Notes under the pieces: model-generated
Databases searched by the model: none
What the model saw: the letters and a program-made list of their open reading frames with translations, nothing else
What the model was told of the DNA's origin: nothing
In this document: piece after piece, positions 32,202 through 34,795 of the stretch
Layout: every line of letters begins with the position of its first letter
How positions within the stretch are numbered: position 1 is the stretch's first letter
NCBI RefSeq assembly: GCF_016595465.1
Contig: NZ_JAENIK010000011.1
Location: 930,001-994,000, forward strand
Direction of reading: 5' to 3'
Source: Luteolibacter yonseiensis
GTDB lineage: Bacteria > Verrucomicrobiota > Verrucomicrobiia > Verrucomicrobiales > Akkermansiaceae
DNA length: 64,000 nucleotides
Made by a program: the position numbers and the translations under genes

Positions 32202-32927
32202 TCAGAAGCCGACGCTGAGGAGGGAACCTGCGACGAATTCGTTTTCGGTGCTGTTCCAGAGGCTGCCGGTGCTTTCACCGAGAGCGATGGAGTAGGCAGC
32301 GAATGGGGAAAGCTTCGCGTGTTCGGCAAAGCCCCAGTCGAGGGAGACCTTGGTGGTCAGGGCGGTGAAGTCACCACCTTCGATGAGGTAGCCGAGGTTG
32401 CCACCGACGTTGAGGGTGAGGCACTGGTTCAGTTCGAAAGCGCGGCTGAGGGCGAGTTCGCTGTAACCTTCGTTGCCACCGTCGTTTTCGATGATGTCCC
32501 AGAAGTAGGTCAAGGAAGCCGTTGCGAAGCCAAGGTCGCGGGAGAGCGAGAAGTAAACTTCCTGATCGTCCGTGCCACCGTTGGTGTTGTCGAGGTTCCA
32601 GTAGTAGATGTAGCCCACGGAAGCGGTCGCGAATCCGAAGTCCTTGCCGACTTCGGTGTAGAGATCGACTTCGCTGTCGATGTCGTTCGAGGTGCCGTCT
32701 TGGTCGAAAGCGGCAGCCCAGACGCCACCGCTGATGCTCAAGCCGTTCCACTCGGCAGCGGCGTCAACGCCGACTTCGACGAGGTCGTCACCAAGCTCAA
32801 CTCCACGGAAGAGGTAGGAGCTGGTGTATCCGGTGTGGAGTTCGTATTCGACTTCCGCGTTAGCGTTGCCAGCCACGAGGGCGGAGGCAGCGGCCAAGGC
32901 GCCAATGGTTTTGCAGTAGTTGTGCAT
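32202..32927 (-). CDS. TorF-family putative porin (TIGR02001-like)
   Basis: 241 residues from the ATG at 32927, which gives a proper signal peptide (MHNYCKTIGALAAASALVAG, cleavage near NANAE); the longer frame adds a hydrophilic, improbable N-terminus. The mature chain opens EYELHTGYTSSYLFRGVELGDDLVEVGVDAAAEW and alternates polar and hydrophobic residues as an outer-membrane beta-barrel does, ending with the aromatic SLLSVGF. These are traits of the TIGR02001 family of putative porins. It is divergent from the ammonium transporter, and the shared 386-bp region carries a sigma-54 promoter and two dyads, so a role in nitrogen-compound uptake is inferred. Confidence 0.8.
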   Translation of the reverse strand: MHNYCKTIGALAAASALVAGNANAEVEYELHTGYTSSYLFRGVELGDDLVEVGVDAAAEWNGLSISGGVWAAAFDQDGTSNDIDSEVDLYTEVGKDFGFATASVGYIYYWNLDNTNGGTDDQEVYFSLSRDLGFATASLTYFWDIIENDGGNEGYSELALSRAFELNQCLTLNVGGNLGYLIEGGDFTALTTKVSLDWGFAEHAKLSPFAAYSIALGESTGSLWNSTENEFVAGSLLSVGF

Positions 32928-33313
32928 CTTGTTATGTTGGTTTTCGGTTGCTGCTTCGTCCGTGGCTGCCGATGTCGACAGACAGGAGCGAGTCGGATTC
33001 AGCGTCCTGCATGCCGCATAGCAGCTGGAAACTTTCCGTTGGCGCGAATATTTCACCTTTCCGAAAGATGTGTCCAGAAATTAATTGGCATGCGGATTCA
33101 GGTTCCGCACGACGAGGGGATAGGATTCCGGCCGGGGGGATGGCAAGAGAGAATCTCCAGTTTCCCTGTTTTTTCCAAAACAGTTGCGGCTTGTTGTCAG
33201 TGGATTAGCTCGAATTGTCATATTGGCACGGGCCTTGCTTATTGCCGCTCATCTCCCGCGAATTTGGAATTCCCGGGCTCAAGCAACCAATCATCCGATT
33301 AACCCTGACCACC
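32928..33313. promoter_or_regulatory. Divergent control region of the porin and ammonium transporter genes
   Basis: A 386-bp gene-free region. It holds a perfect dyad TGCGGA-N7-TCCGCA (33091-33109), a second dyad TGTTTT-N4-AAAACA (33167-33182) and, close to the transporter gene, a sigma-54 promoter (33224-33239). The dyads lie about 115 and 42 bases upstream of the -24 element, where an enhancer-binding activator such as NtrC would sit, but they do not match the E. coli NtrC consensus. I see no sigma-54 element pointing towards the porin gene. Confidence 0.6.
33224..33239 (+). promoter_or_regulatory. Sigma-54 (-24/-12) promoter of the ammonium transporter
   Basis: The sequence TTGGCACGGGCCTTGCT matches the sigma-54 consensus at every conserved position: GG at 33225-33226, ten bases, then GC at 33237-33238. 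It lies ~75 bases before the ATG at 33314, with room for an initiation site near 33250. Nitrogen-limitation control of ammonium transporters through sigma-54 is well known in other bacteria, which makes a chance match unlikely. Confidence 0.88.
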
Positions 33314-34795
33314 ATGACCAGTCGATACCTATGTAAAGTGCGAGCCCTCACGGCGGCCGCGATCGCTTCCATCGCCATTCCCATGTGTATGACCGCGCAT
33401 GCGCAAGAGGCGGCCACTCCTCCGCCGGCCGCGGAGGCCGCGGCACCTGCCGCGGCGACGCCGACTCTTGAAGAACGGATCGCGGATGTGGAAGCCTATA
33501 TGAACAACGTCGCCCGTCCGGAAAAAGCGAGCGGTGCGACATCGCTCGTTGCCGGACCTGGTCCTGGCACGAACGCCTGGCAGATGGTCAGCACGGCCCT
33601 GGTGCTGTTCATGACGCTTCCGGGTCTCGCCCTTTTCTACGGTGGTCTCGTCCGACGCAAGAACGTGCTTTCCGTTCTCGCGCAATGTCTTGGAATCGCC
33701 TGCGTCGTCACTCCTCTCTGGTGGTTGTGCGGATACAGCCTCTCCTTCGGGGTGGATGCGAAGAGCGCGTTCATCGGTGACTTCAGCAACATGATGTTCA
33801 AAGGCGTCGAGCCGGGAAATGTTGGTGCCGGTTACTACTGGATCTCCGACAGCATGTGGGCCATGTTCCAGCTCACCTTCGCGATCATCACGCCCGCCCT
33901 CATCATCGGCGCCATCGCCGAGCGCATGAAGTTCGCGGCCATCATGGCCTTCGTGGTGATCTGGATGTTCGCAGTCTACTTCCCATTCGCCCACATGGTG
34001 TGGTCCACGGTCGGCTTCATGTGCGGACCTCTCAACCCTGCCGCCGGCATCAAGGCCATCGACTTCGCAGGTGGCACGGTCGTTCACATGACCTCCGGCT
34101 GGTCCGCTCTGGTTCTCTGCCTCATCCTCGGCAAGCGCAAGGGCCTTGGCAAGGAGTCGATGGCTCCCCACAGCATGGTTCTCTGCATGGTCGGCACCGG
34201 CATGCTCTGGGTCGGCTGGTATGGATTCAACGCCGGCTCCGCTCTTGGTGCCGACGCCATCGCCTCGAACGCCTTCGTCACCACCACCCTTTGCGCCGCA
34301 ACCGCGGGTCTGGCATGGGCGCTCATCGAATGGATCTGCAAGGGCAAGCCAAGTGTTCTCGGTTTCTGCTCGGGCATCGTCGCCGGTCTCGTGGTCATCA
34401 CTCCAGCCGCTGGCTTCGTGACCTCCACCTCCTCGGTCATCATGGGCGTCATCGCCGGTGTGGTTCCCTTCCTCGCGGTGGCTTACCTCAAGCAAATGCT
34501 TGGATATGACGACGCTCTCGACACCTTCGGTGTTCACGGTGTCGGTGGAACTCTCGGAGCCATCCTTACGGGTGTCTTCGCGGATGAGAAAGCCAACTCG
34601 GTGGTCGCCGGACTCAAGAACGGCCTCATCGTCGAGCAACTCAAGGCTGTCGGCCTCACCATCGTCTGGAGCGTGGTCGCCACCGCCATCATCGCCTACA
34701 TCGTGAAAGCGGTGATCGGCCTCCGCCCAAGCGCTGAAGTCGAGGAAGCCGGTCTCGACCTCGCCGAGCACGGTGAGCAAGGCTACGAACACTGA
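33314..34795 (+). CDS. amt: Ammonium transporter (Amt family)
   Basis: 493 residues from the ATG at 33314; a longer frame starts at 33215 but that would overlap the sigma-54 promoter. A signal-like segment (ALTAAAIASIAIPMCMTAHAQ) and an Ala/Pro-rich linker plus a short helix (~25-75) precede the 11-helix Amt core. Core motifs: LPGLALFYGGLVRRKN, the ammonium-funnel region with DSMWAMFQLTFAII, VHMTSGWSALV with the first pore His, and DTFGVHGVGGTLGAI with the second pore His. It transports ammonium or ammonia across the inner membrane. The usual PII gene (glnK) is not next to it. Confidence 0.96.
   Translation: MTSRYLCKVRALTAAAIASIAIPMCMTAHAQEAATPPPAAEAAAPAAATPTLEERIADVEAYMNNVARPEKASGATSLVAGPGPGTNAWQMVSTALVLFMTLPGLALFYGGLVRRKNVLSVLAQCLGIACVVTPLWWLCGYSLSFGVDAKSAFIGDFSNMMFKGVEPGNVGAGYYWISDSMWAMFQLTFAIITPALIIGAIAERMKFAAIMAFVVIWMFAVYFPFAHMVWSTVGFMCGPLNPAAGIKAIDFAGGTVVHMTSGWSALVLCLILGKRKGLGKESMAPHSMVLCMVGTGMLWVGWYGFNAGSALGADAIASNAFVTTTLCAATAGLAWALIEWICKGKPSVLGFCSGIVAGLVVITPAAGFVTSTSSVIMGVIAGVVPFLAVAYLKQMLGYDDALDTFGVHGVGGTLGAILTGVFADEKANSVVAGLKNGLIVEQLKAVGLTIVWSVVATAIIAYIVKAVIGLRPSAEVEEAGLDLAEHGEQGYEH

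Follow-up and report, generated by a model that had tools for sequence, protein, structure and literature searches.

The ammonium transporter gene amt of Luteolibacter yonseiensis is predicted to be transcribed from a sigma-54 promoter and to belong to a small regulon together with the PII gene and rpoN. Its likeliest activator is a response regulator that we call L018, and the divergent gene for a small outer-membrane barrel, called the porin here, was probably once under sigma-54 as well. We give this reading as a whole a probability of about 0.78. The amt gene (33314-34795, plus strand; 493 aa) encodes, by its sequence, a clear member of the Amt family (PF00909, E 6.4e-112; TIGR00836, 420.8 bits with a cut-off of 343.3). 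The putative -24/-12 promoter of amt, TGGCACGGGCCTTGCT, lies at 33224-33239 on the plus strand, in the 386-base intergenic region that separates the start of the porin gene (32927, minus strand) from that of amt (33314, plus strand). As the sequence-only reading had claimed, TTGGCACGGGCCTTGCT at 33223-33239 has GG and GC ten bases apart. The ATG of amt (33314) follows 74 bases downstream. The site scores 20 of 20 on our own scale, with GG-N10-GC standing in the TGGCAC and TTGCW context. TGGCAC-N5-TTGCW occurs only once on both strands of the window, the whole 64-kb stretch of DNA that was analysed, and that copy is the amt site.

The motif alone proves little. The strict promoter pattern is not enriched in the 5.7-Mb genome, with seven matches versus six for the reversed control, and this is what could be said for a chance resemblance, with amt on a housekeeping promoter only. 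We regard such a coincidence as extremely improbable, since a -24/-12 site scoring at least 17.5 stands upstream of amt in all 51 distinct divergent porin-amt loci, where shuffling predicts 0.85, and sites likewise recur at the PII gene and at rpoN. In the first 18 amt loci read, every site scored 18-20 of 20 and was located 70-107 bases upstream of the start. Among the 51, the site of L089 barely reaches 17.5, at an odd position (-27). These loci come from 56 distinct porin loci, of which five have no divergent amt within 2.5 kb; three relatives, taken from a named collection, are Verrucomicrobia metagenome genomes. For alignment, 35 regions were chosen by a porin-amt gap of 340-420 bases, leaving out the duplicates L070 and L073 and the loci of the distant-amt type (L088, L094, L098, L104 and L114). 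Because three of the 35 rows are identical sequences, 32 regions are counted below; the count of 51 re-admitted loci dropped from the alignment. It is thus by conservation in the relatives that we judge the amt promoter at 33224-33239 to be a real sigma-54 promoter.

The sequence-only reading had made sigma-54 control of amt depend on rpoN, which was found in one copy (PF00309, 52.3 bits, G000:C13:195389). Together with the conserved site, this supports the proposed control. Among 41 relatives, rpoN was found in 38, the misses being G003 (69% complete), G045 (96%) and G010 (98%). The last two, unexpectedly for the proposed control, both carry the amt site (L036 and L047); since rpoN was sought by the 46-residue AID model only, a gap or divergence is possible in these two genomes. 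The genome's own rpoN is preceded by a -24/-12 site, TGGCACAAATTTTGCT, and such a site was found at rpoN in 29 of the 31 loci read (30 of the 38 matches and our own). The single PII gene is preceded by TGGCACACGTCATGCT, at a distance of 43 bases from its start. All 30 PII loci read, our own included and representing the best 30 of the matches in 67 genomes, have a -24/-12 site, and so has the PII gene of G102. No site of at least 17.5 was found at the second amt of the genome; in the relatives, a sigma-54 site precedes 8 of 15 amt genes of the second type and 8 of 11 of the third type. From these upstream regions, amt, the PII gene and rpoN itself are predicted to form a small Ntr-like regulon. 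A conserved TTTCC-CTCGTCA-like stretch lies upstream of the PII site (L118:3280-3340), its loose pattern being present in 22 of 30 loci, and may represent an additional promoter of the housekeeping kind, arranged in tandem with the sigma-54 one. A further gene of nitrogen metabolism was looked for with PF00120, which has one weak match in the genome (E 5.4e-16, G000:C12:818224-818904); the genome may have a glutamine synthetase of a different type, or the true gene may be absent from the assembly.

At promoters of the sigma-54 class, RNA polymerase with RpoN waits for an enhancer-binding protein. By analogy, the polymerase would wait at the amt promoter until such a protein opens the complex, and transcription of amt from the site at 33224-33239 would start near 33250. 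The activator would be L018 (G000:C11, about 189284-190648). A PAS histidine kinase, whose gene directly precedes that of L018, would phosphorylate it, presumably under nitrogen limitation.

The genome encodes five clear sigma-54 activators, and none of these five passes an NtrC model. One of them, L021 (G000:C8:336033-339533), is RtcR (769.3 bits, cut-off 650); the product of its neighbour gene presumably resembles the Ro60/TROVE protein. L018 is composed of a receiver domain (PF00072), a sigma-54 activation domain (PF00158) and a Fis-type helix-turn-helix (PF02954), the combination by which NtrC-type sigma-54 activators are broadly defined, and the neighbouring kinase has PAS, HisKA and HATPase domains. 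Its scores are below the NtrC cut-offs (421.3 of 558.6 bits for TIGR01818 and 354.7 of 620 for NF008176). The L018 type is present in all 20 genus genomes examined, which were selected from 73. Among 29 family genomes, 28 have it at an identity of at least 57%, G003 being the miss. The earlier suggestion that the activator may be a different one, or an NtrC that has diverged, agrees with these results, with the diverged NtrC/AtoC-like L018 as the core candidate.

The promoter could instead be worked by L017, L019 or L020. The L017 type is present in 19 of the 20 genus genomes examined. L019 adjoins a 13-domain PAS/GAF kinase and a molybdopterin oxidoreductase gene, which we take to be of the nitrate-reductase type, and the L020 gene is followed by its own kinase gene. 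However, L017 has Ala at the position of the acceptor Asp, both in our protein and in the 12 orthologues read (12 of the 15 E17 orthologues tried enter this count), and had no helix-turn-helix match in the domain search. Moreover, at E<=1e-20 five genus genomes (G063, G112, G122, G123 and G126) show no activator types other than L017 and L018, and G102, which is 90% complete, has the L018 type alone at this threshold, yet keeps the sites at PII and rpoN. Control by one of these other activators is therefore unlikely in our view, and L018 is left by elimination as the likeliest activator of amt. Its distribution also speaks against it. All six genomes without an amt match retain the L018 type, and in G004 and G017 it is the sole activator, yet neither amt nor rpoN has a -24/-12 site in these two genomes. 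This indicates that L018 serves more than amt, and that its link to amt is one by elimination. The kinase-regulator operon itself has no sigma-54 site (none above 16.0 in nine loci). L017 (L017:1063-2445) deserves mention in its own right as a widespread sigma-54 activator with neither an acceptor Asp nor a helix-turn-helix match; the gene that it adjoins is presumably uracil phosphoribosyltransferase-like.

For the binding place of the activator, the sequence-only reading had proposed two dyads, which are both present as described. Dyad 1, TGCGGATTCAGGTTCCGCA (TGCGGA-N7-TCCGCA), is at 33091-33109, and dyad 2, TGTTTTTTCCAAAACA, is at 33167-33182, or at 33166-33183 with 7-base arms (CTGTTTT-N4-AAAACAG). 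Their distances from the -24 element, about 115 and about 42 bases, suit enhancers, for amt alone or for both genes. The core of dyad 1, CGG-N9-CCG, occupies the same alignment columns in 10 of 32 regions, the window included, a count that the alignment may inflate. Related sequences also have an excess of dyads over single-base shuffles from 33085 (z 3.4) and from 33155 (z 3.1), but the excess is greater elsewhere, from 32935 (z 5.7) and from 33255 (z 4.0). The number of dyads in the region is at the level of chance: there are three hits, two of which are both dyad 2, where shuffling gives a mean of 0.93, and two or more occur in 23.7% of shuffles. Dyad 2 (TGTTTT-N4-AAAACA) is private to the window, the only one of the 32 aligned regions that has it, and was rejected as a conserved site. 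Genome-wide, the dyad 1 pattern has two perfect copies and 67 sites with at most one mismatch versus 19 for the reversed control; this excess is partly due to the commoner half TGCGGA (76 in the window versus 36 for the control half). A search for further copies of dyad 1 near -24/-12 promoters had been suggested in the sequence-only reading. Among the 15 loci read of these 67 sites, a -24/-12 site of at least 18 within 300 bases was found only at the copy in the window; the other 14 had no strong site nearby, and dyad 1 was rejected as a mark of a regulon. The second perfect copy is followed by a stretch of T and, in our reading, resembles the hairpin of a terminator. It is doubtful, then, that the dyads are binding sites of the activator. 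The conserved core lends slight support to dyad 1, dyad 2 is not supported, and the two add little. The sequence-only reading noted that they do not fit the NtrC site of E. coli. The consensus of that site, GCAC-N7-GTGC, is absent from all 32 aligned regions, and an E. coli-type NtrC site was rejected.

Another element is better conserved than the dyads. ATGGCAAGAGAGAATCT, at 33140-33156 on the plus strand, contains GGCAAG (33142) and is a candidate upstream activating site. In 21 of 32 loci (10 of 32 and 1 of 32 for the dyads) GGCAAG stands at this position of the alignment, and its distance from the -24 element downstream is 73-91 bases. On the porin side, a conserved block, CTGGACA...AAATAT (33047-33077, minus strand), is a candidate for a housekeeping-type promoter or a site for a regulator; 45 of the 56 distinct porin loci have its TGGACA, roughly 150 bases upstream of the porin ATG. 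GGCAAG was found in none of 30 PII upstream regions, and TGGACA or its complement in one; hence no enhancer motif common to amt and PII was found. As a candidate dyad shared by the amt and PII upstream regions, the strongest word pair was GCA-N7-TGC, which is the -24/-12 site itself and was rejected.

The divergent gene (32202-32927, minus strand) encodes a 241-aa protein that is modelled, with low confidence, as a small outer-membrane beta-barrel. The protein has no Pfam match. Compared with the TorF family putative porin (TorF/gcw_chp, TIGR02001), it gives a weak match over residues 10-174 (31.3 bits, below the cut-off of 47.15) and seems at best a distant relative. The structure model, with a mean pLDDT of 62, shows a helix at the N terminus and about 12 strands, and loosely matches PDB entries such as PcoB, NanC and KdgM (query TM 0.45-0.52). 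A degenerate -24/-12-like site, CGGCATGCAGGACGCT, lies at 33001-33016 on the minus strand, at -89 of the porin ATG; it scores 15.5 of 20, keeping GG and GC with a poor remainder. On the porin strand, a site of at least 16 is present within 140 bases in 24 of 55 loci, where 2.3 are expected (of the 56 distinct loci, L091 was too short). Sites at -88 to -96 are found in 23 of the 55, the window included. Judged by these sites, the porin and amt probably once had a back-to-back pair of sigma-54 promoters, and the porin, probably under sigma-54 in the past, may still be so in many relatives. The sequence-only reading had suggested that the dyads could also affect the porin gene. Support for an effect on the porin came from elsewhere, namely from the porin's own -24/-12 site, which is present in 22 of 54 relatives and degenerate in the window. 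Solely by its neighbourhood, the porin may have a part in the entry of ammonium.

Control of glnK-amtB by sigma-54 and NtrC is known in Pseudomonadota. The present arrangement resembles it in the -24/-12 promoters at amt and PII and in a response-regulator candidate with a PAS kinase. It differs in that amt and the PII gene are far apart, amt is divergent to a porin gene, the candidate activator is under the NtrC cut-off and there is no E. coli-type NtrC site. Passages of PMC12316311 state sigma-54 control of the ammonia permease (COG0004) and PII (COG0347) for Pseudomonadota, and describe the enrichment of nitrogen functions as weaker in certain classes that they list and as lacking in further ones. 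The same passages report rpoN autoregulation for Verrucomicrobiia, which agrees with the -24/-12 site at rpoN in our loci; this autoregulation is already in print there as a class-level prediction. In the relevant portion of PMC3404531, amtB of 'Ca. Methylacidiphilum fumariolicum' SolV is three- to fourfold up in N2-fixing cells, and ntrB and ntrC4 have neighbouring locus tags; this verrucomicrobial methanotroph is a distant relative, and that comparison concerns features other than the promoter. Our searches of the open literature found nothing that joins Verrucomicrobia, sigma-54, ammonium transporter and NtrC, and nothing that joins the TorF porin name with an ammonium transporter. What we describe seems to be a known kind of control in a bacterial group where it is apparently little described. 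It would bring ammonium uptake and PII under sigma-54 control in a poorly studied group, whereas the passages of PMC12316311, a broad survey, make that statement for Pseudomonadota, and it singles out one kinase-regulator pair as a candidate.

The most interesting part is the paired porin and amt promoters. We tentatively propose, at somewhat less than even odds, a minimal Ntr circuit in this family, in which one diverged NtrBC-like pair drives amt, PII, rpoN and, via back-to-back sigma-54 promoters, a dedicated outer-membrane channel. The outer- and inner-membrane routes of ammonium would be switched together, and the porin half would be decaying in this lineage. The divergent porin-amt pair is a test case for joint control of nutrient entry through the outer and inner membranes.

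The leader of amt was also analysed as RNA, in 31 of the 32 loci (L109 was unmatched). RNAalifold on the 31 untranslated regions gave no common structure (energy 0), and an RNA family search gave two sub-threshold matches, neither of them at the amt untranslated region. The mean fold z over the 31 loci is -1.0 versus +0.29 for a control stretch, and that of our own leader is -0.62. A possible hairpin, CCCGCGAATTTGGAATTCCCGGG, lies at 33255-33277 (plus strand), close to where the amt transcript would begin, with a fold of its own of -11.8 kcal/mol. The amt and PII leaders have no obvious ribosome-binding site. Just before the start codon, the amt (33282-33313) and PII (L118:3380-3394) leaders have an ACCAATC..CCG-like stretch in common.
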